A program made the position numbers and the translations under genes. This document shows positions 1 to 64,000 of a stretch of DNA of 64,000 bases, one piece after another (position 1 is the stretch's first letter; every line of letters starts with the position of its first letter). The stretch is from Utricularia gibba. Lineage: Eukaryota; Streptophyta; Magnoliopsida; Lamiales; Lentibulariaceae. The notes under the pieces were generated by a model that made no database searches, was not told where the DNA came from, and was given only the letters and a program-made list of their open reading frames with translations. The DNA is taken from the NCBI GenBank assembly GCA_002189035.1, contig NEEC01000034.1, forward strand, positions 1 through 64,000, in the 5' to 3' direction.

Positions 1-2804
1 TTTTAACAAATCCGGTGCACGTGTGATTTTTCGGCTGCATCCGAATGGTGATGCGCAATGAAATGACTATGTCGCACATCCTGGTCCACGAAGCACCTCT
101 TCGAAAACATGTAGAGCCTTACTCTTCATAGCACACCATTGGGAAGCTTTATTCGTGCTCCAAGTAATATCATATGGAGTTACGTTTTTCCGATAACTGT
201 GGACATATTAAAAACAACCTCAACGAAAAGTGTCTTCCGTGTCCTTCCTTGGTGGCTGCGTCTAAGAATGTGCTTCTCGTTCTCGACATTGATGCAAATG
301 GGATACACGGCAAAAGAATCAAATAGCCACTAGAGACATGGTGTATGGGAATGGTGCATCAAGAATCAGAAGTATCATAGCAACTAATTGAATCAATCAA
401 CAGCCAAAACATATGGTGTCAAACTTCATCGGATATGCGATCAAGATGGAAAAAAGTCACATGTTACATCATGAATTTCGTGGCATCACTTATCCCAACA
501 CTGTTGTATACTCAGGATATGCGTAAATATTTATTTTTAACAAATCCGGTGCACGTGTGATTTTTCGGCTGCATCCCGAATGGTGATGCGCAATGAAATG
601 ACTATGTCGCACATCCTGGTCCACGAAGCACCTCTTCGAAACATGTAGAGCTTACTCTTCATAGCACACCATTGGGAAGCTTTATTCGTGCTCCAAGTAA
701 TATCATATGGAGTTACGTTTTTCCGATAACTGTGGACATATTAAAAACAACCACAACGAAAAGTGTCTTCCGTGTCCTTCCTTGGTGGCTGCGTCTAAAA
801 TGTGCTTCTCGTTCTCGACATTGATGCAAATGGGATACACGGCAAAGAATCAAATAGCCACTAGAGACATGGTGTATGGGAATGGTGCATCAAGAATCAG
901 AAGTATCATAGCAACTAATTTGAATCAATCAACAGCCAAAACATATGGTGTCAAACTTCATCGGATATGCGATCAAGATGGAAAAAAGTCACATGTTACA
1001 TCATGAATTTCGTGGCATCACTTATCCCAACACTGTTGTATACTCAGGATATGCGTAAATATTTTTTTAACAAATCCGGTGCACGTGTGATTTTTCGGCT
1101 GCATCCCGAATGGTGATGCGCAATGAAATGACTATGTCGCACATCCTGGTCCACGAAGCACCTCTTCGAAAACATGTAGAGCCTTACTCTTCATAGCACA
1201 CCATTGGGAAGCTTTATTCGTGCTCCAAGTAATATCATATGGAGTTACGTTTTTCCGATAACTGTGGACATATTAAAAACAAACCACAACGAAAAGTGTC
1301 TTCCGTGTCCTTCCTTGGTGGCTGCGTCTAAGAATGTGCTTCTCGTTCTCGACATTGATGCAAATGGGATACACGGCAAAAGAATCAAATAGCCACTAGA
1401 GACATGGTGTATGGGAATGGTGCATCAAGAATCAGAAGTATCATAGCAACTAATTGAATCAATCAACAGCCAAAACATATGGTGTCAAACTTCATCGGAT
1501 ATGCGATCAAGATGGAAAAAAGTCACATGTTACATCATGAATTTCGTGGCATCACTTATCCCAACACTGTTGTATACTCAGGATATGCGTAAATATTTAT
1601 TTTTAACAAATCCGGTGCACGTGTGATTTTTCGGCTGCATCCCGAATGGTGATGCGCAATGAAATGACTATGTCGCACATCCTGGTCCACGAAGCACCTC
1701 TTCGAAAACATGTAGAGCCTTACTCTTCATAGCACACCATTGGGAAGCTTTATTCGTGCTCCAAGTAATATCATATGGAGTTACGTTTTTCCGATAACTG
1801 TGGACATATTAAAAACAACCTCAACGAAAAGTGTCTTCCGTGTCCTTCCTTGGTGGCTGCGTCTAAGAATGTGCTTCTCGTTCTCGACATTGATGCAAAT
1901 GGGATACACGGCAAAAGAATCAAATAGCACTAGAGACATGGTGTATGGGAATGGTGCATCAAGAATCAGAAGTATCATAGCAACTAATTGAATCAATCAA
2001 CAGCCAAAACATATGGTGTCAAACTTCATCGGATATGCGATCAAGATGGAAAAAAGTCACATGTTACATCATGAATTTCGTGGCATCACTTATCCAACAC
2101 TGTTGTATACTCAGGATATGCGTAAATATTTATTTTTAACAAATCCGGTGCACGTGTGATTTTTCGGCTGCATCCCGAATGGTGATGCGCAATGAAATGA
2201 CTATGTCGCACATCCTGGTCCACGAAGCACCTCTTCGAAACATGTAGAGCCTTACTCTTCATAGCACACCATTGGGAAGCTTTATTCGTGCTCCAAGTAA
2301 TATCATATGGAGTTACGTTTTCCGATAACTGTGGACATATTAAAAACAACCTCAACGAAAAGTGTCTTCCGTGTCCTTCCTTGGTGGCTGCGTCTAAGAA
2401 TGTGCTTCTCGTTCTCGACATTGATGCAAATGGATACACGGCAAAAGAATCAAATAGCCACTAGAGACATGGTGTATGGGAATGGTGCATCAAGAATCAG
2501 AAGTATCATAGCAACTAATTGAATCAATCAACAGCCAAAACATATGGTGTCAAACTTCATCGGATATGCGATCAAGATGGAAAAAAGTCACATGTTACAT
2601 CATGAATTTCGTGGCATCACTTATCCCAACACTGTTGTATACTCAGGATATGCGTAAATATTTATTTTTAACAAATCCGGTGCACGTGTGATTTTTCGGC
2701 TGCATCCCGAATGGTGATGCGCAATGAAATGACTATGTCGCACATCCTGGTCCACGAAGCACCTCTTCGAAAACATGTAGAGCCTTACTCTTCATAGCAC
2801 ACCA
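1..2804. repeat. Left-edge satellite units with scattered single-base differences
   Basis: The window opens in mid-monomer, followed by unit starts at 139, 672, 1204, 1740 and 2272, with spacings of 533, 532, 536, 532 and 533. Differences seen against the canonical unit: loss of one C in the CCC near 40; one C lost in AGAGCTTA near 650; a T-to-A change shared by the units near 753 and 1286; a lost G near 799; one A lost in GGCAAAGAAT near 844; an extra T near 920; a lost A and T in the AT-rich stretch near 1062; an extra A near 1282; one C lost near 1927 and again near 2094; one G lost near 2432. Together with the A- and T-run alleles these explain each spacing exactly. Such a density of unique one-base changes is not seen in later clean blocks. 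They may be array-edge divergence or lower consensus quality. Confidence 0.93.
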
Positions 2805-2999
2805 TTGGGAAGCTTTATTCGTGCTCCAAGTAATATCATATGGAGTTACGTTTTTCCGATAACTGTGGACATATTAAAAACAACCTCAACGAAAAGTGTC
2901 TTCCGTGTCCTTCCTTGGTGGCTGCGTCTAAGAATGTGCTTCTCGTTCTCGACATTGATGCAAATGGGATACACGGCAAAAGAATCAAATAGCCACTAG
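2805..2999 (+). other. Recurrent 64-codon open frame, judged non-coding
   Basis: The same open frame recurs in every canonical unit. It begins with TTG, not ATG, and its only in-frame ATGs are close to its end. It has no signal peptide, domain or motif I recognise. On the opposite strand, units with both the short A-run and the short T-run have a 121-codon frame (6364-6729, 9572-9937, 17056-17421), also starting at TTG; in canonical units that frame is shifted. A frame that appears and disappears with homopolymer length is not under coding selection. It is listed only to explain why it is not annotated as a gene. Confidence 0.9.
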
Positions 3000-3214
3000 A
3001 GACATGGTGTATGGGAATGGTGCATCAAGAATCAGAAGTATCATAGCAACTAATTGAATCAATCAACAGCCAAAACATATGGTGTCAAACTTCATCGGAT
3101 ATGCGATCAAGATGGAAAAAAGTCACATGTTACATCATGAATTTCGTGGCATCACTTATCCCAACACTGTTGTATACTCAGGATATGCGTAAATATTTAT
3201 TTTTAACAAATCCG

Positions 3215-3223
3215 GTGCACGTG
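3215..3223. other. Overlapping GTGCAC / CACGTG palindromes in each monomer
   Basis: The monomer contains GTGCACGTG, two overlapping six-base palindromes, next to AT-rich sequence upstream and a T5 run downstream. CACGTG is the core of the E-box/G-box bound by bHLH and bZIP proteins in eukaryotes (known biology). Whether any protein binds here is unknown. It recurs once per unit in clean blocks, and in the deleted unit near 54.7 kb it lies at a deletion junction. I report it as a landmark, not as a proven regulatory site. Confidence 0.35.
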
Positions 3224-6200
3224 TGATTTTTCGGCTGCATCCCGAATGGTGATGCGCAATGAAATGACTATGTCGCACATCCTGGTCCACGAAGCACCTC
3301 TTCGAAAACATGTAGAGCCTTACTCTTCATAGCACACCATTGGGAAGCTTTATTCGTGCTCCAAGTAATATCATATGGAGTTACGTTTTTCCGATAACTG
3401 TGGACATATTAAAAACAACCTCAACGAAAAGTGTCTTCCGTGTCCTTCCTTGGTGGCTGCGTCTAAGAATGTGCTTCTCGTTCTCGACATTGATGCAAAT
3501 GGGATACACGGCAAAAGAATCAAATAGCCACTAGAGACATGGTGTATGGGAATGGTGCATCAAGAATCAGAAGTATCATAGCAACTAATTGAATCAATCA
3601 ACAGCCAAAACATATGGTGTCAAACTTCATCGGATATGCGATCAAGATGGAAAAAAGTCACATGTTACATCATGAATTTCGTGGCATCACTTATCCCAAC
3701 ACTGTTGTATACTCAGGATATGCGTAAATATTTATTTTTAACAAATCCGGTGCACGTGTGATTTTTCGGCTGCATCCCGAATGGTGATGCGCAATGAAAT
3801 GACTATGTCGCACATCCTGGTCCACGAAGCACCTCTTCGAAACATGTAGAGCCTTACTCTTCATAGCACACCATTGGGAAGCTTTATTCGTGCTCCAAGT
3901 AATATCATATGGAGTTACGTTTTTCCGATAACTGTGGACATATTAAAAACAACCTCAACGAAAAGTGTCTTCCGTGTCCTTCCTTGGTGGCTGCGTCTAA
4001 GAATGTGCTTCTCGTTCTCGACATTGATGCAAATGGGATACACGGCAAAAGAATCAAATAGCCACTAGAGACATGGTGTATGGGAATGGTGCATCAAGAA
4101 TCAGAAGTATCATAGCAACTAATTGAATCAATCAACAGCCAAAACATATGGTGTCAAACTTCATCGGATATGCGATCAAGATGGAAAAAAGTCACATGTT
4201 ACATCATGAATTTCGTGGCATCACTTATCCCAACACTGTTGTATACTCAGGATATGCGTAAATATTTATTTTTAACAAATCCGGTGCACGTGTGATTTTT
4301 CGGCTGCATCCCGAATGGTGATGCGCAATGAAATGACTATGTCGCACATCCTGGTCCACGAAGCACCTCTTCGAAAACATGTAGAGCCTTACTCTTCATA
4401 GCACACCATTGGGAAGCTTTATTCGTGCTCCAAGTAATATCATATGGAGTTACGTTTTTCCGATAACTGTGGACATATTAAAAACAACCTCAACGAAAAG
4501 TGTCTTCCGTGTCCTTCCTTGGTGGCTGCGTCTAAGAATGTGCTTCTCGTTCTCGACATTGATGCAAATGGGATACACGGCAAAAGAATCAAATAGCCAC
4601 TAGAGACATGGTGTATGGGAATGGTGCATCAAGAATCAGAAGTATCATAGCAACTAATTGAATCAATCAACAGCCAAAACATATGGTGTCAAACTTCATC
4701 GGATATGCGATCAAGATGGAAAAAAGTCACATGTTACATCATGAATTTCGTGGCATCACTTATCCCAACACTGTTGTATACTCAGGATATGCGTAAATAT
4801 TTATTTTTAACAAATCCGGTGCACGTGTGATTTTTCGGCTGCATCCCGAATGGTGATGCGCAATGAAATGACTATGTCGCACATCCTGGTCCACGAAGCA
4901 CCTCTTCGAAAACATGTAGAGCCTTACTCTTCATAGCACACCATTGGGAAGCTTTATTCGTGCTCCAAGTAATATCATATGGAGTTACGTTTTTCCGATA
5001 ACTGTGGACATATTAAAAACAACCTCAACGAAAAGTGTCTTCCGTGTCCTTCCTTGGTGGCTGCGTCTAAGAATGTGCTTCTCGTTCTCGACATTGATGC
5101 AAATGGGATACACGGCAAAAGAATCAAATAGCCACTAGAGACATGGTGTATGGGAATGGTGCATCAAGAATCAGAAGTATCATAGCAACTAATTGAATCA
5201 ATCAACAGCCAAAACATATGGTGTCAAACTTCATCGGATATGCGATCAAGATGGAAAAAAGTCACATGTTACATCATGAATTTCGTGGCATCACTTATCC
5301 CAACACTGTTGTATACTCAGGATATGCGTAAATATTTATTTTTAACAAATCCGGTGCACGTGTGATTTTTCGGCTGCATCCCGAATGGTGATGCGCAATG
5401 AAATGACTATGTCGCACATCCTGGTCCACGAAGCACCTCTTCGAAACATGTAGAGCCTTACTCTTCATAGCACACCATTGGGAAGCTTTATTCGTGCTCC
5501 AAGTAATATCATATGGAGTTACGTTTTTCCGATAACTGTGGACATATTAAAAACAACCTCAACGAAAAGTGTCTTCCGTGTCCTTCCTTGGTGGCTGCGT
5601 CTAAGAATGTGCTTCTCGTTCTCGACATTGATGCAAATGGGATACACGGCAAAAGAATCAAATAGCCACTAGAGACATGGTGTATGGGAATGGTGCATCA
5701 AGAATCAGAAGTATCATAGCAACTAATTGAATCAATCAACAGCCAAAACATATGGTGTCAAACTTCATCGGATATGCGATCAAGATGGAAAAAAGTCACA
5801 TGTTACATCATGAATTTCGTGGCATCACTTATCCCAACACTGTTGTATACTCAGGATATGCGTAAATATTTATTTTTAACAAATCCGGTGCACGTGTGAT
5901 TTTTCGGCTGCATCCCGAATGGTGATGCGCAATGAAATGACTATGTCGCACATCCTGGTCCACGAAGCACCTCTTCGAAAACATGTAGAGCCTTACTCTT
6001 CATAGCACACCATTGGGAAGCTTTATTCGTGCTCCAAGTAATATCATATGGAGTTACGTTTTTCCGATAACTGTGGACATATTAAAAACAACCTCAACGA
6101 AAAGTGTCTTCCGTGTCCTTCCTTGGTGGCTGCGTCTAAGAATGTGCTTCTCGTTCTCGACATTGATGCAAATGGGATACACGGCAAAAGAATCAAATAG

Positions 6201-9200
6201 CCACTAGAGACATGGTGTATGGGAATGGTGCATCAAGAATCAGAAGTATCATAGCAACTAATTGAATCAATCAACAGCCAAAACATATGGTGTCAAACTT
6301 CATCGGATATGCGATCAAGATGGAAAAAAGTCACATGTTACATCATGAATTTCGTGGCATCACTTATCCCAACACTGTTGTATACTCAGGATATGCGTAA
6401 ATATTTATTTTTAACAAATCCGGTGCACGTGTGATTTTTCGGCTGCATCCCGAATGGTGATGCGCAATGAAATGACTATGTCGCACATCCTGGTCCACGA
6501 AGCACCTCTTCGAAACATGTAGAGCCTTACTCTTCATAGCACACCATTGGGAAGCTTTATTCGTGCTCCAAGTAATATCATATGGAGTTACGTTTTCCGA
6601 TAACTGTGGACATATTAAAAACAACCTCAACGAAAAGTGTCTTCCGTGTCCTTCCTTGGTGGCTGCGTCTAAGAATGTGCTTCTCGTTCTCGACATTGAT
6701 GCAAATGGGATACACGGCAAAAGAATCAAATAGCCACTAGAGACATGGTGTATGGGAATGGTGCATCAAGAATCAGAAGTATCATAGCAACTAATTGAAT
6801 CAATCAACAGCCAAAACATATGGTGTCAAACTTCATCGGATATGCGATCAAGATGGAAAAAAGTCACATGTTACATCATGAATTTCGTGGCATCACTTAT
6901 CCCAACACTGTTGTATACTCAGGATATGCGTAAATATTTATTTTTAACAAATCCGGTGCACGTGTGATTTTTCGGCTGCATCCCGAATGGTGATGCGCAA
7001 TGAAATGACTATGTCGCACATCCTGGTCCACGAAGCACCTCTTCGAAAACATGTAGAGCCTTACTCTTCATAGCACACCATTGGGAAGCTTTATTCGTGC
7101 TCCAAGTAATATCATATGGAGTTACGTTTTTCCGATAACTGTGGACATATTAAAAACAACCTCAACGAAAAGTGTCTTCCGTGTCCTTCCTTGGTGGCTG
7201 CGTCTAAGAATGTGCTTCTCGTTCTCGACATTGATGCAAATGGGATACACGGCAAAAGAATCAAATAGCCACTAGAGACATGGTGTATGGGAATGGTGCA
7301 TCAAGAATCAGAAGTATCATAGCAACTAATTGAATCAATCAACAGCCAAAACATATGGTGTCAAACTTCATCGGATATGCGATCAAGATGGAAAAAAGTC
7401 ACATGTTACATCATGAATTTCGTGGCATCACTTATCCCAACACTGTTGTATACTCAGGATATGCGTAAATATTTATTTTTAACAAATCCGGTGCACGTGT
7501 GATTTTTCGGCTGCATCCCGAATGGTGATGCGCAATGAAATGACTATGTCGCACATCCTGGTCCACGAAGCACCTCTTCGAAAACATGTAGAGCCTTACT
7601 CTTCATAGCACACCATTGGGAAGCTTTATTCGTGCTCCAAGTAATATCATATGGAGTTACGTTTTTCCGATAACTGTGGACATATTAAAAACAACCTCAA
7701 CGAAAAGTGTCTTCCGTGTCCTTCCTTGGTGGCTGCGTCTAAGAATGTGCTTCTCGTTCTCGACATTGATGCAAATGGGATACACGGCAAAAGAATCAAA
7801 TAGCCACTAGAGACATGGTGTATGGGAATGGTGCATCAAGAATCAGAAGTATCATAGCAACTAATTGAATCAATCAACAGCCAAAACATATGGTGTCAAA
7901 CTTCATCGGATATGCGATCAAGATGGAAAAAAGTCACATGTTACATCATGAATTTCGTGGCATCACTTATCCCAACACTGTTGTATACTCAGGATATGCG
8001 TAAATATTTATTTTTAACAAATCCGGTGCACGTGTGATTTTTCGGCTGCATCCCGAATGGTGATGCGCAATGAAATGACTATGTCGCACATCCTGGTCCA
8101 CGAAGCACCTCTTCGAAAACATGTAGAGCCTTACTCTTCATAGCACACCATTGGGAAGCTTTATTCGTGCTCCAAGTAATATCATATGGAGTTACGTTTT
8201 TCCGATAACTGTGGACATATTAAAAACAACCTCAACGAAAAGTGTCTTCCGTGTCCTTCCTTGGTGGCTGCGTCTAAGAATGTGCTTCTCGTTCTCGACA
8301 TTGATGCAAATGGGATACACGGCAAAAGAATCAAATAGCCACTAGAGACATGGTGTATGGGAATGGTGCATCAAGAATCAGAAGTATCATAGCAACTAAT
8401 TGAATCAATCAACAGCCAAAACATATGGTGTCAAACTTCATCGGATATGCGATCAAGATGGAAAAAAGTCACATGTTACATCATGAATTTCGTGGCATCA
8501 CTTATCCCAACACTGTTGTATACTCAGGATATGCGTAAATATTTATTTTTAACAAATCCGGTGCACGTGTGATTTTTCGGCTGCATCCCGAATGGTGATG
8601 CGCAATGAAATGACTATGTCGCACATCCTGGTCCACGAAGCACCTCTTCGAAAACATGTAGAGCCTTACTCTTCATAGCACACCATTGGGAAGCTTTATT
8701 CGTGCTCCAAGTAATATCATATGGAGTTACGTTTTTCCGATAACTGTGGACATATTAAAAACAACCTCAACGAAAAGTGTCTTCCGTGTCCTTCCTTGGT
8801 GGCTGCGTCTAAGAATGTGCTTCTCGTTCTCGACATTGATGCAAATGGGATACACGGCAAAAGAATCAAATAGCCACTAGAGACATGGTGTATGGGAATG
8901 GTGCATCAAGAATCAGAAGTATCATAGCAACTAATTGAATCAATCAACAGCCAAAACATATGGTGTCAAACTTCATCGGATATGCGATCAAGATGGAAAA
9001 AAGTCACATGTTACATCATGAATTTCGTGGCATCACTTATCCCAACACTGTTGTATACTCAGGATATGCGTAAATATTTATTTTTAACAAATCCGGTGCA
9101 CGTGTGATTTTTCGGCTGCATCCCGAATGGTGATGCGCAATGAAATGACTATGTCGCACATCCTGGTCCACGAAGCACCTCTTCGAAAACATGTAGAGCC

Positions 9201-12200
9201 TTACTCTTCATAGCACACCATTGGGAAGCTTTATTCGTGCTCCAAGTAATATCATATGGAGTTACGTTTTTCCGATAACTGTGGACATATTAAAAACAAC
9301 CTCAACGAAAAGTGTCTTCCGTGTCCTTCCTTGGTGGCTGCGTCTAAGAATGTGCTTCTCGTTCTCGACATTGATGCAAATGGGATACACGGCAAAAGAA
9401 TCAAATAGCCACTAGAGACATGGTGTATGGGAATGGTGCATCAAGAATCAGAAGTATCATAGCAACTAATTGAATCAATCAACAGCCAAAACATATGGTG
9501 TCAAACTTCATCGGATATGCGATCAAGATGGAAAAAAGTCACATGTTACATCATGAATTTCGTGGCATCACTTATCCCAACACTGTTGTATACTCAGGAT
9601 ATGCGTAAATATTTATTTTTAACAAATCCGGTGCACGTGTGATTTTTCGGCTGCATCCCGAATGGTGATGCGCAATGAAATGACTATGTCGCACATCCTG
9701 GTCCACGAAGCACCTCTTCGAAACATGTAGAGCCTTACTCTTCATAGCACACCATTGGGAAGCTTTATTCGTGCTCCAAGTAATATCATATGGAGTTACG
9801 TTTTCCGATAACTGTGGACATATTAAAAACAACCTCAACGAAAAGTGTCTTCCGTGTCCTTCCTTGGTGGCTGCGTCTAAGAATGTGCTTCTCGTTCTCG
9901 ACATTGATGCAAATGGGATACACGGCAAAAGAATCAAATAGCCACTAGAGACATGGTGTATGGGAATGGTGCATCAAGAATCAGAAGTATCATAGCAACT
10001 AATTGAATCAATCAACAGCCAAAACATATGGTGTCAAACTTCATCGGATATGCGATCAAGATGGAAAAAAGTCACATGTTACATCATGAATTTCGTGGCA
10101 TCACTTATCCCAACACTGTTGTATACTCAGGATATGCGTAAATATTTATTTTTAACAAATCCGGTGCACGTGTGATTTTTCGGCTGCATCCCGAATGGTG
10201 ATGCGCAATGAAATGACTATGTCGCACATCCTGGTCCACGAAGCACCTCTTCGAAAACATGTAGAGCCTTACTCTTCATAGCACACCATTGGGAAGCTTT
10301 ATTCGTGCTCCAAGTAATATCATATGGAGTTACGTTTTTCCGATAACTGTGGACATATTAAAAACAACCTCAACGAAAAGTGTCTTCCGTGTCCTTCCTT
10401 GGTGGCTGCGTCTAAGAATGTGCTTCTCGTTCTCGACATTGATGCAAATGGGATACACGGCAAAAGAATCAAATAGCCACTAGAGACATGGTGTATGGGA
10501 ATGGTGCATCAAGAATCAGAAGTATCATAGCAACTAATTGAATCAATCAACAGCCAAAACATATGGTGTCAAACTTCATCGGATATGCGATCAAGATGGA
10601 AAAAAGTCACATGTTACATCATGAATTTCGTGGCATCACTTATCCCAACACTGTTGTATACTCAGGATATGCGTAAATATTTATTTTTAACAAATCCGGT
10701 GCACGTGTGATTTTTCGGCTGCATCCCGAATGGTGATGCGCAATGAAATGACTATGTCGCACATCCTGGTCCACGAAGCACCTCTTCGAAAACATGTAGA
10801 GCCTTACTCTTCATAGCACACCATTGGGAAGCTTTATTCGTGCTCCAAGTAATATCATATGGAGTTACGTTTTTCCGATAACTGTGGACATATTAAAAAC
10901 AACCTCAACGAAAAGTGTCTTCCGTGTCCTTCCTTGGTGGCTGCGTCTAAGAATGTGCTTCTCGTTCTCGACATTGATGCAAATGGGATACACGGCAAAA
11001 GAATCAAATAGCCACTAGAGACATGGTGTATGGGAATGGTGCATCAAGAATCAGAAGTATCATAGCAACTAATTGAATCAATCAACAGCCAAAACATATG
11101 GTGTCAAACTTCATCGGATATGCGATCAAGATGGAAAAAAGTCACATGTTACATCATGAATTTCGTGGCATCACTTATCCCAACACTGTTGTATACTCAG
11201 GATATGCGTAAATATTTATTTTTAACAAATCCGGTGCACGTGTGATTTTTCGGCTGCATCCCGAATGGTGATGCGCAATGAAATGACTATGTCGCACATC
11301 CTGGTCCACGAAGCACCTCTTCGAAAACATGTAGAGCCTTACTCTTCATAGCACACCATTGGGAAGCTTTATTCGTGCTCCAAGTAATATCATATGGAGT
11401 TACGTTTTTCCGATAACTGTGGACATATTAAAAACAACCTCAACGAAAAGTGTCTTCCGTGTCCTTCCTTGGTGGCTGCGTCTAAGAATGTGCTTCTCGT
11501 TCTCGACATTGATGCAAATGGGATACACGGCAAAAGAATCAAATAGCCACTAGAGACATGGTGTATGGGAATGGTGCATCAAGAATCAGAAGTATCATAG
11601 CAACTAATTGAATCAATCAACAGCCAAAACATATGGTGTCAAACTTCATCGGATATGCGATCAAGATGGAAAAAAGTCACATGTTACATCATGAATTTCG
11701 TGGCATCACTTATCCCAACACTGTTGTATACTCAGGATATGCGTAAATATTTATTTTTAACAAATCCGGTGCACGTGTGATTTTTCGGCTGCATCCCGAA
11801 TGGTGATGCGCAATGAAATGACTATGTCGCACATCCTGGTCCACGAAGCACCTCTTCGAAACATGTAGAGCCTTACTCTTCATAGCACACCATTGGGAAG
11901 CTTTATTCGTGCTCCAAGTAATATCATATGGAGTTACGTTTTTCCGATAACTGTGGACATATTAAAAACAACCTCAACGAAAAGTGTCTTCCGTGTCCTT
12001 CCTTGGTGGCTGCGTCTAAGAATGTGCTTCTCGTTCTCGACATTGATGCAAATGGGATACACGGCAAAAGAATCAAATAGCCACTAGAGACATGGTGTAT
12101 GGGAATGGTGCATCAAGAATCAGAAGTATCATAGCAACTAATTGAATCAATCAACAGCCAAAACATATGGTGTCAAACTTCATCGGATATGCGATCAAGA

Positions 12201-15200
12201 TGGAAAAAAGTCACATGTTACATCATGAATTTCGTGGCATCACTTATCCCAACACTGTTGTATACTCAGGATATGCGTAAATATTTATTTTTAACAAATC
12301 CGGTGCACGTGTGATTTTTCGGCTGCATCCCGAATGGTGATGCGCAATGAAATGACTATGTCGCACATCCTGGTCCACGAAGCACCTCTTCGAAACATGT
12401 AGAGCCTTACTCTTCATAGCACACCATTGGGAAGCTTTATTCGTGCTCCAAGTAATATCATATGGAGTTACGTTTTTCCGATAACTGTGGACATATTAAA
12501 AACAACCTCAACGAAAAGTGTCTTCCGTGTCCTTCCTTGGTGGCTGCGTCTAAGAATGTGCTTCTCGTTCTCGACATTGATGCAAATGGGATACACGGCA
12601 AAAGAATCAAATAGCCACTAGAGACATGGTGTATGGGAATGGTGCATCAAGAATCAGAAGTATCATAGCAACTAATTGAATCAATCAACAGCCAAAACAT
12701 ATGGTGTCAAACTTCATCGGATATGCGATCAAGATGGAAAAAAGTCACATGTTACATCATGAATTTCGTGGCATCACTTATCCCAACACTGTTGTATACT
12801 CAGGATATGCGTAAATATTTATTTTTAACAAATCCGGTGCACGTGTGATTTTTCGGCTGCATCCCGAATGGTGATGCGCAATGAAATGACTATGTCGCAC
12901 ATCCTGGTCCACGAAGCACCTCTTCGAAAACATGTAGAGCCTTACTCTTCATAGCACACCATTGGGAAGCTTTATTCGTGCTCCAAGTAATATCATATGG
13001 AGTTACGTTTTTCCGATAACTGTGGACATATTAAAAACAACCTCAACGAAAAGTGTCTTCCGTGTCCTTCCTTGGTGGCTGCGTCTAAGAATGTGCTTCT
13101 CGTTCTCGACATTGATGCAAATGGGATACACGGCAAAAGAATCAAATAGCCACTAGAGACATGGTGTATGGGAATGGTGCATCAAGAATCAGAAGTATCA
13201 TAGCAACTAATTGAATCAATCAACAGCCAAAACATATGGTGTCAAACTTCATCGGATATGCGATCAAGATGGAAAAAAGTCACATGTTACATCATGAATT
13301 TCGTGGCATCACTTATCCCAACACTGTTGTATACTCAGGATATGCGTAAATATTTATTTTTAACAAATCCGGTGCACGTGTGATTTTTCGGCTGCATCCC
13401 GAATGGTGATGCGCAATGAAATGACTATGTCGCACATCCTGGTCCACGAAGCACCTCTTCGAAAACATGTAGAGCCTTACTCTTCATAGCACACCATTGG
13501 GAAGCTTTATTCGTGCTCCAAGTAATATCATATGGAGTTACGTTTTTCCGATAACTGTGGACATATTAAAAACAACCTCAACGAAAAGTGTCTTCCGTGT
13601 CCTTCCTTGGTGGCTGCGTCTAAGAATGTGCTTCTCGTTCTCGACATTGATGCAAATGGGATACACGGCAAAAGAATCAAATAGCCACTAGAGACATGGT
13701 GTATGGGAATGGTGCATCAAGAATCAGAAGTATCATAGCAACTAATTGAATCAATCAACAGCCAAAACATATGGTGTCAAACTTCATCGGATATGCGATC
13801 AAGATGGAAAAAAGTCACATGTTACATCATGAATTTCGTGGCATCACTTATCCCAACACTGTTGTATACTCAGGATATGCGTAAATATTTATTTTTAACA
13901 AATCCGGTGCACGTGTGATTTTTCGGCTGCATCCCGAATGGTGATGCGCAATGAAATGACTATGTCGCACATCCTGGTCCACGAAGCACCTCTTCGAAAA
14001 CATGTAGAGCCTTACTCTTCATAGCACACCATTGGGAAGCTTTATTCGTGCTCCAAGTAATATCATATGGAGTTACGTTTTTCCGATAACTGTGGACATA
14101 TTAAAAACAACCTCAACGAAAAGTGTCTTCCGTGTCCTTCCTTGGTGGCTGCGTCTAAGAATGTGCTTCTCGTTCTCGACATTGATGCAAATGGGATACA
14201 CGGCAAAAGAATCAAATAGCCACTAGAGACATGGTGTATGGGAATGGTGCATCAAGAATCAGAAGTATCATAGCAACTAATTGAATCAATCAACAGCCAA
14301 AACATATGGTGTCAAACTTCATCGGATATGCGATCAAGATGGAAAAAAGTCACATGTTACATCATGAATTTCGTGGCATCACTTATCCCAACACTGTTGT
14401 ATACTCAGGATATGCGTAAATATTTATTTTTAACAAATCCGGTGCACGTGTGATTTTTCGGCTGCATCCCGAATGGTGATGCGCAATGAAATGACTATGT
14501 CGCACATCCTGGTCCACGAAGCACCTCTTCGAAAACATGTAGAGCCTTACTCTTCATAGCACACCATTGGGAAGCTTTATTCGTGCTCCAAGTAATATCA
14601 TATGGAGTTACGTTTTTCCGATAACTGTGGACATATTAAAAACAACCTCAACGAAAAGTGTCTTCCGTGTCCTTCCTTGGTGGCTGCGTCTAAGAATGTG
14701 CTTCTCGTTCTCGACATTGATGCAAATGGGATACACGGCAAAAGAATCAAATAGCCACTAGAGACATGGTGTATGGGAATGGTGCATCAAGAATCAGAAG
14801 TATCATAGCAACTAATTGAATCAATCAACAGCCAAAACATATGGTGTCAAACTTCATCGGATATGCGATCAAGATGGAAAAAAGTCACATGTTACATCAT
14901 GAATTTCGTGGCATCACTTATCCCAACACTGTTGTATACTCAGGATATGCGTAAATATTTATTTTTAACAAATCCGGTGCACGTGTGATTTTTCGGCTGC
15001 ATCCCGAATGGTGATGCGCAATGAAATGACTATGTCGCACATCCTGGTCCACGAAGCACCTCTTCGAAACATGTAGAGCCTTACTCTTCATAGCACACCA
15101 TTGGGAAGCTTTATTCGTGCTCCAAGTAATATCATATGGAGTTACGTTTTTCCGATAACTGTGGACATATTAAAAACAACCTCAACGAAAAGTGTCTTCC

Positions 15201-18200
15201 GTGTCCTTCCTTGGTGGCTGCGTCTAAGAATGTGCTTCTCGTTCTCGACATTGATGCAAATGGGATACACGGCAAAAGAATCAAATAGCCACTAGAGACA
15301 TGGTGTATGGGAATGGTGCATCAAGAATCAGAAGTATCATAGCAACTAATTGAATCAATCAACAGCCAAAACATATGGTGTCAAACTTCATCGGATATGC
15401 GATCAAGATGGAAAAAAGTCACATGTTACATCATGAATTTCGTGGCATCACTTATCCCAACACTGTTGTATACTCAGGATATGCGTAAATATTTATTTTT
15501 AACAAATCCGGTGCACGTGTGATTTTTCGGCTGCATCCCGAATGGTGATGCGCAATGAAATGACTATGTCGCACATCCTGGTCCACGAAGCACCTCTTCG
15601 AAAACATGTAGAGCCTTACTCTTCATAGCACACCATTGGGAAGCTTTATTCGTGCTCCAAGTAATATCATATGGAGTTACGTTTTTCCGATAACTGTGGA
15701 CATATTAAAAACAACCTCAACGAAAAGTGTCTTCCGTGTCCTTCCTTGGTGGCTGCGTCTAAGAATGTGCTTCTCGTTCTCGACATTGATGCAAATGGGA
15801 TACACGGCAAAAGAATCAAATAGCCACTAGAGACATGGTGTATGGGAATGGTGCATCAAGAATCAGAAGTATCATAGCAACTAATTGAATCAATCAACAG
15901 CCAAAACATATGGTGTCAAACTTCATCGGATATGCGATCAAGATGGAAAAAAGTCACATGTTACATCATGAATTTCGTGGCATCACTTATCCCAACACTG
16001 TTGTATACTCAGGATATGCGTAAATATTTATTTTTAACAAATCCGGTGCACGTGTGATTTTTCGGCTGCATCCCGAATGGTGATGCGCAATGAAATGACT
16101 ATGTCGCACATCCTGGTCCACGAAGCACCTCTTCGAAACATGTAGAGCCTTACTCTTCATAGCACACCATTGGGAAGCTTTATTCGTGCTCCAAGTAATA
16201 TCATATGGAGTTACGTTTTTCCGATAACTGTGGACATATTAAAAACAACCTCAACGAAAAGTGTCTTCCGTGTCCTTCCTTGGTGGCTGCGTCTAAGAAT
16301 GTGCTTCTCGTTCTCGACATTGATGCAAATGGGATACACGGCAAAAGAATCAAATAGCCACTAGAGACATGGTGTATGGGAATGGTGCATCAAGAATCAG
16401 AAGTATCATAGCAACTAATTGAATCAATCAACAGCCAAAACATATGGTGTCAAACTTCATCGGATATGCGATCAAGATGGAAAAAAGTCACATGTTACAT
16501 CATGAATTTCGTGGCATCACTTATCCCAACACTGTTGTATACTCAGGATATGCGTAAATATTTATTTTTAACAAATCCGGTGCACGTGTGATTTTTCGGC
16601 TGCATCCCGAATGGTGATGCGCAATGAAATGACTATGTCGCACATCCTGGTCCACGAAGCACCTCTTCGAAAACATGTAGAGCCTTACTCTTCATAGCAC
16701 ACCATTGGGAAGCTTTATTCGTGCTCCAAGTAATATCATATGGAGTTACGTTTTTCCGATAACTGTGGACATATTAAAAACAACCTCAACGAAAAGTGTC
16801 TTCCGTGTCCTTCCTTGGTGGCTGCGTCTAAGAATGTGCTTCTCGTTCTCGACATTGATGCAAATGGGATACACGGCAAAAGAATCAAATAGCCACTAGA
16901 GACATGGTGTATGGGAATGGTGCATCAAGAATCAGAAGTATCATAGCAACTAATTGAATCAATCAACAGCCAAAACATATGGTGTCAAACTTCATCGGAT
17001 ATGCGATCAAGATGGAAAAAAGTCACATGTTACATCATGAATTTCGTGGCATCACTTATCCCAACACTGTTGTATACTCAGGATATGCGTAAATATTTAT
17101 TTTTAACAAATCCGGTGCACGTGTGATTTTTCGGCTGCATCCCGAATGGTGATGCGCAATGAAATGACTATGTCGCACATCCTGGTCCACGAAGCACCTC
17201 TTCGAAACATGTAGAGCCTTACTCTTCATAGCACACCATTGGGAAGCTTTATTCGTGCTCCAAGTAATATCATATGGAGTTACGTTTTCCGATAACTGTG
17301 GACATATTAAAAACAACCTCAACGAAAAGTGTCTTCCGTGTCCTTCCTTGGTGGCTGCGTCTAAGAATGTGCTTCTCGTTCTCGACATTGATGCAAATGG
17401 GATACACGGCAAAAGAATCAAATAGCCACTAGAGACATGGTGTATGGGAATGGTGCATCAAGAATCAGAAGTATCATAGCAACTAATTGAATCAATCAAC
17501 AGCCAAAACATATGGTGTCAAACTTCATCGGATATGCGATCAAGATGGAAAAAAGTCACATGTTACATCATGAATTTCGTGGCATCACTTATCCCAACAC
17601 TGTTGTATACTCAGGATATGCGTAAATATTTATTTTTAACAAATCCGGTGCACGTGTGATTTTTCGGCTGCATCCCGAATGGTGATGCGCAATGAAATGA
17701 CTATGTCGCACATCCTGGTCCACGAAGCACCTCTTCGAAAACATGTAGAGCCTTACTCTTCATAGCACACCATTGGGAAGCTTTATTCGTGCTCCAAGTA
17801 ATATCATATGGAGTTACGTTTTTCCGATAACTGTGGACATATTAAAAACAACCTCAACGAAAAGTGTCTTCCGTGTCCTTCCTTGGTGGCTGCGTCTAAG
17901 AATGTGCTTCTCGTTCTCGACATTGATGCAAATGGGATACACGGCAAAAGAATCAAATAGCCACTAGAGACATGGTGTATGGGAATGGTGCATCAAGAAT
18001 CAGAAGTATCATAGCAACTAATTGAATCAATCAACAGCCAAAACATATGGTGTCAAACTTCATCGGATATGCGATCAAGATGGAAAAAAGTCACATGTTA
18101 CATCATGAATTTCGTGGCATCACTTATCCCAACACTGTTGTATACTCAGGATATGCGTAAATATTTATTTTTAACAAATCCGGTGCACGTGTGATTTTTC

Positions 18201-21200
18201 GGCTGCATCCCGAATGGTGATGCGCAATGAAATGACTATGTCGCACATCCTGGTCCACGAAGCACCTCTTCGAAACATGTAGAGCCTTACTCTTCATAGC
18301 ACACCATTGGGAAGCTTTATTCGTGCTCCAAGTAATATCATATGGAGTTACGTTTTTCCGATAACTGTGGACATATTAAAAACAACCTCAACGAAAAGTG
18401 TCTTCCGTGTCCTTCCTTGGTGGCTGCGTCTAAGAATGTGCTTCTCGTTCTCGACATTGATGCAAATGGGATACACGGCAAAAGAATCAAATAGCCACTA
18501 GAGACATGGTGTATGGGAATGGTGCATCAAGAATCAGAAGTATCATAGCAACTAATTGAATCAATCAACAGCCAAAACATATGGTGTCAAACTTCATCGG
18601 ATATGCGATCAAGATGGAAAAAAGTCACATGTTACATCATGAATTTCGTGGCATCACTTATCCCAACACTGTTGTATACTCAGGATATGCGTAAATATTT
18701 ATTTTTAACAAATCCGGTGCACGTGTGATTTTTCGGCTGCATCCCGAATGGTGATGCGCAATGAAATGACTATGTCGCACATCCTGGTCCACGAAGCACC
18801 TCTTCGAAAACATGTAGAGCCTTACTCTTCATAGCACACCATTGGGAAGCTTTATTCGTGCTCCAAGTAATATCATATGGAGTTACGTTTTTCCGATAAC
18901 TGTGGACATATTAAAAACAACCTCAACGAAAAGTGTCTTCCGTGTCCTTCCTTGGTGGCTGCGTCTAAGAATGTGCTTCTCGTTCTCGACATTGATGCAA
19001 ATGGGATACACGGCAAAAGAATCAAATAGCCACTAGAGACATGGTGTATGGGAATGGTGCATCAAGAATCAGAAGTATCATAGCAACTAATTGAATCAAT
19101 CAACAGCCAAAACATATGGTGTCAAACTTCATCGGATATGCGATCAAGATGGAAAAAAGTCACATGTTACATCATGAATTTCGTGGCATCACTTATCCCA
19201 ACACTGTTGTATACTCAGGATATGCGTAAATATTTATTTTTAACAAATCCGGTGCACGTGTGATTTTTCGGCTGCATCCCGAATGGTGATGCGCAATGAA
19301 ATGACTATGTCGCACATCCTGGTCCACGAAGCACCTCTTCGAAAACATGTAGAGCCTTACTCTTCATAGCACACCATTGGGAAGCTTTATTCGTGCTCCA
19401 AGTAATATCATATGGAGTTACGTTTTTCCGATAACTGTGGACATATTAAAAACAACCTCAACGAAAAGTGTCTTCCGTGTCCTTCCTTGGTGGCTGCGTC
19501 TAAGAATGTGCTTCTCGTTCTCGACATTGATGCAAATGGGATACACGGCAAAAGAATCAAATAGCCACTAGAGACATGGTGTATGGGAATGGTGCATCAA
19601 GAATCAGAAGTATCATAGCAACTAATTGAATCAATCAACAGCCAAAACATATGGTGTCAAACTTCATCGGATATGCGATCAAGATGGAAAAAAGTCACAT
19701 GTTACATCATGAATTTCGTGGCATCACTTATCCCAACACTGTTGTATACTCAGGATATGCGTAAATATTTATTTTTAACAAATCCGGTGCACGTGTGATT
19801 TTTCGGCTGCATCCCGAATGGTGATGCGCAATGAAATGACTATGTCGCACATCCTGGTCCACGAAGCACCTCTTCGAAACATGTAGAGCCTTACTCTTCA
19901 TAGCACACCATTGGGAAGCTTTATTCGTGCTCCAAGTAATATCATATGGAGTTACGTTTTTCCGATAACTGTGGACATATTAAAAACAACCTCAACGAAA
20001 AGTGTCTTCCGTGTCCTTCCTTGGTGGCTGCGTCTAAGAATGTGCTTCTCGTTCTCGACATTGATGCAAATGGGATACACGGCAAAAGAATCAAATAGCC
20101 ACTAGAGACATGGTGTATGGGAATGGTGCATCAAGAATCAGAAGTATCATAGCAACTAATTGAATCAATCAACAGCCAAAACATATGGTGTCAAACTTCA
20201 TCGGATATGCGATCAAGATGGAAAAAAGTCACATGTTACATCATGAATTTCGTGGCATCACTTATCCCAACACTGTTGTATACTCAGGATATGCGTAAAT
20301 ATTTATTTTTAACAAATCCGGTGCACGTGTGATTTTTCGGCTGCATCCCGAATGGTGATGCGCAATGAAATGACTATGTCGCACATCCTGGTCCACGAAG
20401 CACCTCTTCGAAAACATGTAGAGCCTTACTCTTCATAGCACACCATTGGGAAGCTTTATTCGTGCTCCAAGTAATATCATATGGAGTTACGTTTTTCCGA
20501 TAACTGTGGACATATTAAAAACAACCTCAACGAAAAGTGTCTTCCGTGTCCTTCCTTGGTGGCTGCGTCTAAGAATGTGCTTCTCGTTCTCGACATTGAT
20601 GCAAATGGGATACACGGCAAAAGAATCAAATAGCCACTAGAGACATGGTGTATGGGAATGGTGCATCAAGAATCAGAAGTATCATAGCAACTAATTGAAT
20701 CAATCAACAGCCAAAACATATGGTGTCAAACTTCATCGGATATGCGATCAAGATGGAAAAAAGTCACATGTTACATCATGAATTTCGTGGCATCACTTAT
20801 CCCAACACTGTTGTATACTCAGGATATGCGTAAATATTTATTTTTAACAAATCCGGTGCACGTGTGATTTTTCGGCTGCATCCCGAATGGTGATGCGCAA
20901 TGAAATGACTATGTCGCACATCCTGGTCCACGAAGCACCTCTTCGAAACATGTAGAGCCTTACTCTTCATAGCACACCATTGGGAAGCTTTATTCGTGCT
21001 CCAAGTAATATCATATGGAGTTACGTTTTTCCGATAACTGTGGACATATTAAAAACAACCTCAACGAAAAGTGTCTTCCGTGTCCTTCCTTGGTGGCTGC
21101 GTCTAAGAATGTGCTTCTCGTTCTCGACATTGATGCAAATGGGATACACGGCAAAAGAATCAAATAGCCACTAGAGACATGGTGTATGGGAATGGTGCAT

Positions 21201-22048
21201 CAAGAATCAGAAGTATCATAGCAACTAATTGAATCAATCAACAGCCAAAACATATGGTGTCAAACTTCATCGGATATGCGATCAAGATGGAAAAAAGTCA
21301 CATGTTACATCATGAATTTCGTGGCATCACTTATCCCAACACTGTTGTATACTCAGGATATGCGTAAATATTTATTTTTAACAAATCCGGTGCACGTGTG
21401 ATTTTTCGGCTGCATCCCGAATGGTGATGCGCAATGAAATGACTATGTCGCACATCCTGGTCCACGAAGCACCTCTTCGAAAACATGTAGAGCCTTACTC
21501 TTCATAGCACACCATTGGGAAGCTTTATTCGTGCTCCAAGTAATATCATATGGAGTTACGTTTTTCCGATAACTGTGGACATATTAAAAACAACCTCAAC
21601 GAAAAGTGTCTTCCGTGTCCTTCCTTGGTGGCTGCGTCTAAGAATGTGCTTCTCGTTCTCGACATTGATGCAAATGGGATACACGGCAAAAGAATCAAAT
21701 AGCCACTAGAGACATGGTGTATGGGAATGGTGCATCAAGAATCAGAAGTATCATAGCAACTAATTGAATCAATCAACAGCCAAAACATATGGTGTCAAAC
21801 TTCATCGGATATGCGATCAAGATGGAAAAAAGTCACATGTTACATCATGAATTTCGTGGCATCACTTATCCCAACACTGTTGTATACTCAGGATATGCGT
21901 AAATATTTATTTTTAACAAATCCGGTGCACGTGTGATTTTTCGGCTGCATCCCGAATGGTGATGCGCAATGAAATGACTATGTCGCACATCCTGGTCCAC
22001 GAAGCACCTCTTCGAAACATGTAGAGCCTTACTCTTCATAGCACACCA

Positions 22049-22622
22049 TTGGGAAGCTTTATTCGTGCTCCAAGTAATATCATATGGAGTTACGTTTTTC
22101 CGATAACTGTGGACATATTAAAAACAACCTCAACGAAAAGTGTCTTCCGTGTCCTTCCTTGGTGGCTGCGTCTAAGAATGTGCTTCTCGTTCTCGACATT
22201 GATGCAAATGGGATCACACTAGAGACAATGGGAATGGTGCATCAAGAATCAGAAGTATCATAGCAACTAATTGAATCAATCAACAGCCAAAACACATGGT
22301 GTCCCATGGGCATCACTGCTCAGCGTAAATCAAATACGTGTGAAAATTGTGTCAATGACCGTGGGTGTCAAACTTCATCGGATATGCGATCAAGATGGAA
22401 AAAAGTCACATGTTACATCATGAATTTCGTGGCATCACTTATCCCAACACTGTTGTATACTCAGGATATGCGTAAATATTTATTTTTAACAAATCCGGTG
22501 CACGTGTGATTTTTCGGCTGCATCCCGAATGGTGATGCGCAATGAAATGACTATGTCGCACATCCTGGTCCACGAAGCACCTCTTCGAAAACATGTAGAG
22601 CCTTACTCTTCATAGCACACCA
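22049..22622. repeat. Rearranged unit: 27 bp net loss and 66 bp net insertion
   Basis: This unit is 574 bp long. Near 22215-22230 about 27 bp are missing between GGGAT and AATGGGAATGG. From about 22294 to 22365 there is a net insertion of about 66 bp between ACACATGGTGTC and GGTGTCAAACTTC. The insert is not obviously foreign: it contains GGCATCACT, GCGTAAAT, CAAAT and ACGTGTGA in the order in which they occur later in the monomer, with the bases between them missing, so it looks like a compressed second copy of the monomer's 3' part. An open frame with an ATG at 22306 (67 codons) runs through the insert into ordinary repeat; I do not regard it as a gene. Confidence 0.85.
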
Positions 22623-23331
22623 TTGGGAAGCTTTATTCGTGCTCCAAGTAATATCATATGGAGTTACGTTTTCCGATAACTGTGGACATATTAAAAACAA
22701 CCTCAACGAAAAGTGTCTTCCGTGTCCTTCCTTGGTGGCTGCGTCTTCTCGTTCTCGACATTGATGCAAATGGGATACACGGCAAAAGAATCAAATAGCC
22801 ACTAGAGACATGGTGTATGGGAATGGTGCATCAAGAATCAGAAGTATCATAGCAACTAATTGAATCAATCAACAGCCAAAACATATGGTGTCAAACTTCA
22901 TCGGATATGCGATCAAGCGTGAAAAAAGCACTTCTCGTTCTCGACATTGATGCAAATGGGATACACGGCAAAAGAATCAAATAGCCACTAGAGACATGGT
23001 GTATGGGAATGGTGCATCAAGAATCAGAAGTATCATAGCAACTAATTGAATCAATCAACAGCCAAAACATATGGTGTCAAACTTCATCGGATATGCGATC
23101 AAGATGGAAAAAAGTCACATGTTACATCATGAATTTCGTGGCATCACTTATCCCAACACTGTTGTATACTCAGGATATGCGTAAATATTTATTTTTAACA
23201 AATCCGGTGCACGTGTGATTTTTCGGCTGCATCCCGAATGGTGATGCGCAATGAAATGACTATGTCGCACATCCTGGTCCACGAAGCACCTCTTCGAAAA
23301 CATGTAGAGCCTTACTCTTCATAGCACACCA
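22623..23331. repeat. Unit with 186 bp partial tandem duplication
   Basis: The spacing is 709 bp. GCGTC joins directly to TTCTCG near 22745, with loss of 11 bp, and the T-run near 22670 has four T. After GATCAAG (about 22918) the sequence reads CGTGAAAAAAGCA and then restarts at CTTCTCGTTCTCG at 22931, repeating the segment that began at 22745. The offset of 186 bp, minus 11 and 1, accounts for the full length. The restart point falls in the same CTTCTCG stretch at which many other units are broken. Confidence 0.88.
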
Positions 23332-37531: not shown

Positions 37532-38065
37532 TTGGGAAGCTTTATTCGTGCTCCAAGTAATATCATATGGAGTTACGTTTTTCCGATAACTGTGGACATA
37601 TTAAAAACAACCTCAACGAAAAGTGTCTTCCGTGTCCTTCCTTGGTGGCTGCGTCTAAGAATGTGCTTCTCGTTCTCGACATTGATGCAAATGGGATACA
37701 CGGCAAAAGAATCAAATAGCCACTAGAGACATGGTGTATGGGAATGGTGCATCAAGAATCAGAAGTATCATAGCAACTAATTGAATCAATCAACAGCCAA
37801 AACATATGGTGTCAAACTTCATCGGATATGCGATCAAGATGGAAAAAAGTCACATGTTACATCATGAATTTCGTGGCATCACTTATCCCAACACTGTTGT
37901 ATACTCAGGATATGCGTAAATATTTATTTTTAACAAATCCGGTGCACGTGTGATTTTTCGGCTGCATCCCGAATGGTGATGCGCAATGAAATGACTATGT
38001 CGCACATCCTGGTCCACGAAGCACCTCTTCGAAACATGTAGAGCCTTACTCTTCATAGCACACCA
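37532..38065. repeat. One canonical satellite unit
   Basis: The unit starts at 37532 and is followed by a three-A boundary near 38033. No gene is visible. Confidence 0.95.
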
Positions 38066-38694
38066 TTGGGAAGCTTTATTCGTGCTCCAAGTAATATCAT
38101 ATGGAGTTACGTTTTTCCGATAACTGTGGACATATTAAAAACAACCTCAACGAAAAGTGTCTTCCGTGTCCTTCCTTGAAGCTTCTCGTGCTCCAACTCA
38201 TATGGATGGTTGCGATAACGTGGACATATTAAAAACAACCTCAACGAAAAGTGTCTTCCGTGTCCTTCCTTGGTGGCTGCGTCTAAGAATGTGCTTCTCG
38301 TTCTCGACATTGATGCAAATGGGATACACGGCAAAAGAATCAAATAGCCACTAGAGACATGGTGTATGGGAATGGTGCATCAAGAATCAGAAGTATCATA
38401 GCAACTAATTGAATCAATCAACAGCCAAAACATATGGTGTCAAACTTCATCGGATATGCGATCAAGATGGAAAAAAGTCACATGTTACATCATGAATTTC
38501 GTGGCATCACTTATCCCAACACTGTTGTATACTCAGGATATGCGTAAATATTTATTTTTAACAAATCCGGTGCACGTGTGATTTTTCGGCTGCATCCCGA
38601 ATGGTGATGCGCAATGAAATGACTATGTCGCACATCCTGGTCCACGAAGCACCTCTTCGAAAACATGTAGAGCCTTACTCTTCATAGCACACCA
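38066..38694. repeat. Unit with 94 bp partial internal duplication
   Basis: The unit is 629 bp. After GTCCTTCCTTG near 38178 it returns to GAAGCTTCTCGTGCTCCAAC, a degraded copy of the start of the same unit, passes through CATATGGATGGTTGCGATAACG near 38200-38221, and then repeats GTGGACATATTAAAAAC and onward. The extra copy has several small gaps against the original. The rest of the unit is canonical. Confidence 0.87.
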
Positions 38695-47600: not shown

Positions 47601-47716
47601 CACTTATCCCAACACTGTTGTATACTCAGGATATGCGTAAATATTTATTTTTAACAAATCCGGTGCACGTGTGATTTTTCGGCTGCATCCCGAATGGTGA
47701 TGCGCAATGAAATGAC
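38695..47716. repeat. Clean satellite block, 17 units
   Basis: Unit starts run 38695, 39230, 39765, 40299, 40834, 41369, 41903, 42438 and then every 535 bp to 47253. Only the boundaries before 40299 and 41903 have the three-A allele. From 41903 to 47253 there are ten consecutive spacings of exactly 535 bp, the longest invariant run in the window. The block ends in mid-unit at the deletion near 47717. Confidence 0.96.
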
Positions 47717-54335: not shown

Positions 54336-54830
54336 TTGGGAAGCTTTATTCGTGCTCCAAGTAATATCATATGGAGTTACGTTTTTCCGATAACTGTGGA
54401 CATATTAAAAACAACCTCAACGAAAAGTGTCTTCGTGTCCTTCCTTGGTGGCTGCGTCTAAGAATGTGCTTCTCGTTCTCGACATTGATGCAAATGGGAT
54501 ACACGGCAAAAGAATCAAATAGCCACTAGAGACATGGTGTATGGGAATGGTGCATCAAGAATCAGAAGTATCATAGCAACTAATTGAATCAATCAACAGC
54601 CAAAACATATGGTGTCAAACTTCATCGGATATGCGATCAAGATGGAAAAAAGTCACATGTTACATCATGAATTTCGTGGCATCACTTATCCCACTGTTGT
54701 ATACTCACGTGTGCACGTGTGATTTTTCGGCTGCATCCCGAATGGTGATGCGCAATGAAATGACTATGTCGCACATCCTGGTCCACGAAGCACCTCTTCG
54801 ATGTAGAGCCTTACTCTTCATAGCACACCA
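54336..54830. repeat. Truncated unit, 495 bp, several deletions
   Basis: One C is missing near 54434. Three bases are lost in ATCCCACTGTTG near 54690. About 31 bp are lost where TATACTCACGTGTGCACG near 54700-54718 skips the AT-rich stretch. Five bases are lost in TTCGATGTAGAGCC near 54799. The sum is 40 bp. Confidence 0.88.
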
Positions 54831-55262
54831 TTGGGAAGCAAGTATCGGATAACTGTGGACATAGTGTCACTTCTCGTTCTCGACATTGATGCTACACGGC
54901 AAAAGAATCAAATAGCCACTAGAGACATGGTGTATGGGAATGGTGCATCAAGAATCAGAAGTATCATAGCAACTAATTGAATCAATCAACAGCCAAAACA
55001 TATGGTGTCAAACTTCATCGGATATGCGATCAAGATGGAAAAAAGTCACATGTTACATCATGAATTTCGTGGCATCACTTATCCCAACACTGTTGTATAC
55101 TCAGGATATGCGTAAATATTTATTTTTAACAAATCCGGTGCACGTGTGATTTTTCGGCTGCATCCCGAATGGTGATGCGCAATGAAATGACTATGTCGCA
55201 CATCCTGGTCCACGAAGCACCTCTTCGAAAACATGTAGAGCCTTACTCTTCATAGCACACCA
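54831..55262. repeat. Truncated unit, 432 bp, patchy deletions
   Basis: From 54840 to about 54895 only short pieces of the monomer remain in order: GGAAGCAAGTATCGGATAAC, TGTGGACATAGTGTCAC, TTCTCGTTCTCG and GATGCTACACGGC. About 103 bp are missing in several gaps. The rest is canonical. Confidence 0.86.
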
Positions 55263-61538: not shown

Positions 61539-63674
61539 TTGGGAAGCTTTATTCGTGCTCCAAGTAATATCATATGGAGTTACGTTTTTCCGATAACTGT
61601 GGACATATTAAAAACAACCTCAACGAAAAGTGTCTTCCGTGTCCTTCCTTGGTGGCTGCGTCTAAGAATGTGCTTCTCGTTCTCGACATTGATGCAAATG
61701 GGATACACGGCAAAAGAATCAAATAGCCACTAGAGACATGGTGTATGGGAATGGTGCATCAAGAATCAGAAGTATCATAGCAACTAATTGAATCAATCAA
61801 CAGCCAAAACATATGGTGTCAAACTTCATCGGATATGCGATCAAGATGGAAAAAAGTCACATGTTACATCATGAATTTCGTGGCATCACTTATCCCAACA
61901 CTGTTGTATACTCAGGATATGCGTAAATATTTATTTTTAACAAATCCGGTGCACGTGTGATTTTTCGGCTGCATCCCGAATGGTGATGCGCAATGAAATG
62001 ACTATGTCGCACATCCTGGTCCACGAAGCACCTCTTCGAAAACATGTAGAGCCTTACTCTTCATAGCACACCATTGGGAAGCTTTATTCGTGCTCCAAGT
62101 AATATCATATGGAGTTACGTTTTTCCGATAACTGTGGACATATTAAAAACAACCTCAACGAAAAGTGTCTTCCGTGTCCTTCCTTGGTGGCTGCGTCTAA
62201 GAATGTGCTTCTCGTTCTCGACATTGATGCAAATGGGATACACGGCAAAAGAATCAAATAGCCACTAGAGACATGGTGTATGGGAATGGTGCATCAAGAA
62301 TCAGAAGTATCATAGCAACTAATTGAATCAATCAACAGCCAAAACATATGGTGTCAAACTTCATCGGATATGCGATCAAGATGGAAAAAAGTCACATGTT
62401 ACATCATGAATTTCGTGGCATCACTTATCCCAACACTGTTGTATACTCAGGATATGCGTAAATATTTATTTTTAACAAATCCGGTGCACGTGTGATTTTT
62501 CGGCTGCATCCCGAATGGTGATGCGCAATGAAATGACTATGTCGCACATCCTGGTCCACGAAGCACCTCTTCGAAAACATGTAGAGCCTTACTCTTCATA
62601 GCACACCATTGGGAAGCTTTATTCGTGCTCCAAGTAATATCATATGGAGTTACGTTTTCCGATAACTGTGGACATATTAAAAACAACCTCAACGAAAAGT
62701 GTCTTCCGTGTCCTTCCTTGGTGGCTGCGTCTAAGAATGTGCTTCTCGTTCTCGACATTGATGCAAATGGGATACACGGCAAAAGAATCAAATAGCCACT
62801 AGAGACATGGTGTATGGGAATGGTGCATCAAGAATCAGAAGTATCATAGCAACTAATTGAATCAATCAACAGCCAAAACATATGGTGTCAAACTTCATCG
62901 GATATGCGATCAAGATGGAAAAAAGTCACATGTTACATCATGAATTTCGTGGCATCACTTATCCCAACACTGTTGTATACTCAGGATATGCGTAAATATT
63001 TATTTTTAACAAATCCGGTGCACGTGTGATTTTTCGGCTGCATCCCGAATGGTGATGCGCAATGAAATGACTATGTCGCACATCCTGGTCCACGAAGCAC
63101 CTCTTCGAAACATGTAGAGCCTTACTCTTCATAGCACACCATTGGGAAGCTTTATTCGTGCTCCAAGTAATATCATATGGAGTTACGTTTTTCCGATAAC
63201 TGTGGACATATTAAAAACAACCTCAACGAAAAGTGTCTTCCGTGTCCTTCCTTGGTGGCTGCGTCTAAGAATGTGCTTCTCGTTCTCGACATTGATGCAA
63301 ATGGGATACACGGCAAAAGAATCAAATAGCCACTAGAGACATGGTGTATGGGAATGGTGCATCAAGAATCAGAAGTATCATAGCAACTAATTGAATCAAT
63401 CAACAGCCAAAACATATGGTGTCAAACTTCATCGGATATGCGATCAAGATGGAAAAAAGTCACATGTTACATCATGAATTTCGTGGCATCACTTATCCCA
63501 ACACTGTTGTATACTCAGGATATGCGTAAATATTTATTTTTAACAAATCCGGTGCACGTGTGATTTTTCGGCTGCATCCCGAATGGTGATGCGCAATGAA
63601 ATGACTATGTCGCACATCCTGGTCCACGAAGCACCTCTTCGAAAATGTAGAGCCTTACTCTTCATAGCACACCA
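61539..63674. repeat. Satellite block, 4 units
   Basis: Unit starts are 61539, 62074, 62609 and 63142. The unit at 62609 has four T, the boundary before 63142 has three A, and the boundary before 63675 has CGAAAATGTAG (two bases lost), as near 29222. No gene is visible. Confidence 0.94.
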
Positions 63675-64000
63675 TTGGGAAGCTTTATTCGTGCTCCAAG
63701 TAATATCATATGGAGTTACGTTTTTCCGATAACTGTGGACATATTAAAAACAACCTCAACGAAAAGTGTCTTCCGTGTCCTTCCTTGGTGGCTGCGTCTA
63801 AGAGATGCCTCGTTCTCAAGACAGAAATGTGTCAATTCCGTGTCCAACTTCAAAATATTGATGCAAATGGGATACACGGCAAAAGAATCAAATAGCCACT
63901 AGAGACATGGTGTATGGGAATGGTGCATCAAGAATCAGAAGTATCATAGCAACTAATTGAATCAATCAACAGCCAAAACATATGGTGTCAAACTTCATCG
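63675..64000. repeat. Partial last unit with 33 bp net insertion
   Basis: The window ends inside this unit. Between CTAAGA near 63803 and ATTGATGC near 63858 the usual ATGTGCTTCTCG and TTCTCGAC pieces are replaced by a longer segment. It contains GATGCCTCGTTCTCAAGACA and then GTGTCAATTCCGTGTCCAAC, a degraded second copy of the GTGTCTTCCGTGTCCTTCC motif. The remainder to 64000 is canonical, so the array continues past the window. Confidence 0.85.

Follow-up and report, generated by a model that had tools for sequence, protein, structure and literature searches.

A head-to-tail 535-bp satellite array whose near-absence of substitutions is probably in large part a product of assembly

The stretch of DNA analysed here (the window, 64,000 bp) is filled by copies of one unit that are nearly all alike, which raises the question whether this uniformity belongs to the DNA itself or to the way in which the contig was assembled. 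If the homogeneity were real, the array would be a good place to date satellite amplification and to catch it in progress.

Architecture and content of the array

Autocorrelation of the window gave peaks at 535 bp and its multiples, and an exact 21-base anchor was found 120 times, delimiting 119 anchor-to-anchor units. While 69 of these intervals are exactly 535 bp long and letter-for-letter identical, most of the others lack a base at one of two homopolymers or at both; 22 intervals measure 534 bp and 6 measure 533 bp. No reverse-complement 21-mer of the unit was detected in the window, indicating that all copies lie on one strand in a single orientation. Together, these three results bear out the preliminary description, which had counted about 121 same-orientation units of this length. 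The array escaped Tandem Repeats Finder only because the longest period considered by that program is 500. The main features are listed below.

1..64000, + strand: whole array, a single head-to-tail array of about 120 copies of the 535-bp unit, its ends extending past the window on both sides (autocorrelation, 120 exact anchors, no inverted copies)
2670..3204, + strand: reference copy, with zero differences from the consensus; begins AACAAATCCGGTGCACGTGTG
2770..2773, + strand: variable homopolymer 1 (A4) in the reference copy; A3 in 29 units
2851..2855, + strand: variable homopolymer 2 (T5) in the reference copy; T4 in 10 units
2450..22000, + strand: cleanest stretch, 19.5 kb, with 0 events beyond the two homopolymers (cyclic alignment)

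The unit has a G+C content of 41% and a CpG observed/expected ratio of 0.94. It contains no open reading frame above 83 amino acids (longest stop-to-stop frame in the tested stretch), and the Pfam search returned nothing credible, its best E value of 0.29 falling far short of the cut-off. A coding unit or a transposon remnant was rejected on these grounds. Rfam gave no match on either strand with E values up to 1, hence no hammerhead or other ribozyme, and the ARAGORN search of the unit for tRNAs was also empty. Structured RNA, tRNA and rDNA spacer were thus rejected, and the unit does not belong with ribozyme-bearing satellites or retrozymes. Nor is it a CENP-B-box satellite, the motif (NTTCGNNNNANNCGGGN) being absent from both strands of the consensus. 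A shorter internal subrepeat or a telomere motif as the basis of the repeat was rejected as well, since self-alignment of the unit did not exceed that of shuffles and no telomere motif occurs in it. As a long uninterrupted array of one non-coding unit, the window is a satellite DNA array of known kind. An imperfect 22-bp palindrome, CTTCATCGGATATGCGATCAAG, is present at window 3090-3111, with a score inside the shuffled-sequence range.

Uniformity of the units

Exact consensus 31-mers account for 98.7% of the bases in the window. The whole window was also aligned cyclically to the consensus, with jumps permitted. This alignment yielded 53 isolated events and 27 clusters totalling about 990 bases, referred to below as damaged patches. 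Of the isolated events, 34 are losses of one base at the two homopolymers and five are exact internal jumps; the rest are a single insertion, a single substitution and other scattered small deletions. Since that single isolated substitution is the only one in about 63 kb outside the patches, the array is even more uniform than previously described once the patches are set aside. Some scattered one-base losses are present in the first 2.4 kb of the window. Units 2 and 3 (window 539-1604) both carry A instead of T at unit position 217 (CAACCACAACG for CAACCTCAACG), a change seen nowhere else outside the patches and possibly surviving true variation.

The preliminary claim that clean units differ almost solely in two homopolymer lengths was confirmed. 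The first homopolymer, at unit position 101-104, is shortened from A4 to A3, and the second, at unit position 182-186, from T5 to T4; both are preceded by CG. Further homopolymers that are at least as long as these (A6, A5 and two T5) scarcely vary, so that the two variable sites could be true family variants at which the consensus flips; they could also be context-specific miscalls. In the first 22 kb, A3 units occurred at two-unit spacing 6 times, compared with an expectation of 2.8 (P about 0.04, uncorrected for multiple testing), a weak excess that does not make a convincing higher-order repeat pattern. Linkage between the A3 and T4 variants was rejected (P = 0.06).

Damaged patches and their error spectrum

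About 20 units are damaged, with anchor intervals of 371-927 bp, and nearly all of them lie to the right of 22.2 kb, from which point patches recur.

22215..22931, + strand: first group of damaged patches, with a 186-bp local duplication (cyclic alignment, Tandem Repeats Finder)
30853..31017, + strand: damaged patch covering unit positions ~124-207 with 15 insertions, 1 deletion and 0 substitutions, then a jump back to 72-129 with deletions only
34653..34707, + strand: damaged patch with 38 matches, 17 insertions and 0 substitutions relative to the unit
36733..38220, + strand: damaged patches with internal losses and jumps
54690..54893, + strand: damaged patches
63804..63856, + strand: damaged patch with a jump back to unit positions 215-244 and 8 insertions

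When compared with the unit's forward strand, 9 of 12 patches matched at a level close to or exceeding the best of 100 shuffles, 8 of them clearly; the patch at 22295-22363 did not exceed the best shuffle. The patches are badly read copies of the 535-bp unit itself. Within the damaged region, Tandem Repeats Finder reported the 186-bp local tandem duplication at 22745-23114, which is likely a mis-join.

In ten well-aligned patches taken together, 62 insertions and 52 deletions were counted alongside 10 substitutions, of which 7 fall in one patch that did not beat shuffles. The patches are heterogeneous, some consisting almost purely of insertions and several being rich in deletions. At 30853-30943, for example, the alignment to the unit comprises 76 matches, 15 inserted bases, 1 deletion and 0 substitutions. 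Under the same scoring, substitutions outnumbered indels by 757 to 177 in simulated copies carrying 15% substitutions; for a simulated read rich in insertions the counts were 661 insertions, 115 deletions and 74 substitutions. Random sequence was also indel-heavy (1455 indels versus 319 substitutions), which means that the weakest patches carry little information. The differences along the window are bimodal, the sequence being either exact consensus or scrap with few intermediates. The indel excess of the patches is characteristic of individual error-prone long reads. Their insertion-rich stretches recall PacBio continuous long reads, which were presumably the platform used. Most patches and internal deletions fall at unit positions about 100-310 (e.g. 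window 2770-2980) and the remainder of the unit is rarely affected; this clustering suggests a sequence-dependent reading problem.

Possible sources of the uniformity

The alternation of perfect consensus with raw-read scrap indicates that the contig was most likely corrected using reads of many repeat copies. We therefore favor, as the probable explanation, a non-coding satellite array lying in a contig built from error-prone long reads, in which the absence of substitutions was largely created by pooled correction or polishing. Reads from many copies would have been pooled at this step, each position would then show the family consensus, real variation being erased, and raw read sequence would have been retained as patches wherever correction failed. 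Under pooled correction, the lack of substitutions is not a measure of biological homogeneity. Polishing with long reads is known to be degraded in large repeats by ambiguous read placement (PMC7484160). More generally, uniform satellite arrays in error-prone long-read assemblies should be read with caution, as they can reflect a pooled consensus, which is betrayed by residual errors that are indels and not substitutions. Hence, the satellite-type array of the preliminary description stands, but its statement that the homogeneity implies recent amplification or very active homogenisation is weakened, indel-dominated scrap between runs of perfect consensus, with almost no substitutions, being what read correction or polishing with pooled repeat copies would leave. 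The satellite itself may be quite uniform, like many satellites, and the technical signature is no proof of diversity either. The near-constancy of A6, A5 and the two T5 speaks against a pooled consensus in that uniform read error does not predict it, and the two variable sites may accordingly be true polymorphisms.

Real homogeneity, with sequencing faults confined to the patches, would require a recent amplification burst (e.g. rolling-circle copying of one unit followed by integration) or extreme conversion. The 69 identical units, the 19.5 kb that are unchanged apart from two homopolymers, the constancy of long homopolymers such as A6 and the substitution shared by neighbouring units at the left end of the window are all consistent with it. 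However, the patches left by failed correction reveal noisy source reads, so that the contig cannot report true unit-to-unit variation, and a divergence of 1%, which is low for a satellite, predicts about 630 substitutions versus the one found outside the patches. We consider real homogeneity unlikely on balance. The more specific proposal of an undescribed satellite family with truly identical neighbouring units over tens of kilobases, produced by a burst in the very recent past or by homogenisation of exceptional strength, is harder still to credit.

A non-chromosomal array, either a concatemer of a small circular DNA of 535 bp or a rolling-circle amplification product, would also present identical units in one orientation and no flanking sequence in the window. 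We regard this as very improbable: the unit has no replication gene, open reading frame or ribozyme, nothing in phages, plasmids, IMG/VR or prokaryote genomes matches it, and a 64-kb satellite array without flanks is ordinary. The same searches led us to reject a phage, plasmid, viral or prokaryotic origin, and the array is most likely nuclear and eukaryotic. Damaged units that are real biology, i.e. rearrangement hot spots or diverged satellite subunits, would fit the preference of the breaks for unit positions about 100-310, several of these breaks being clean internal deletions or jumps. The patches, however, are full of indels of one to three bases and nearly devoid of substitutions, which is unlike diverged DNA and makes this reading scarcely plausible.

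Satellites in general are formed and homogenised by unequal crossing-over, gene conversion or rolling-circle re-insertion. The same mechanisms would account for the origin and uniformity of the array described here, and its role would be that of generic packaged heterochromatin, whether centromeric, subtelomeric or knob. In text searches of the literature by monomer length and sequence letters, no named satellite of 535 bp came up, nor any published portion of the unit, and the family may be undescribed, as the preliminary description proposed. Where "535" appeared in the satellite papers examined, it belonged either to the wheat probe pTa-535 or to the pagination of a reference such as Smith 1976. 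Like plant and animal satellites generally (e.g. those of Lathyrus in nanopore reads, PMC7004042), the array is a long one-orientation series of a non-coding unit without genes, but it is almost without variation and its residual flaws look technical. Likened by length alone, the khipu satellite in the subtelomeric knobs of Phaseolus vulgaris is a comparable non-coding head-to-tail array, with a unit of 528 bp (PMC3797529). Its units fall into clades sharing 72 to more than 85% identity (PMC3797529), whereas those of the window are essentially identical.
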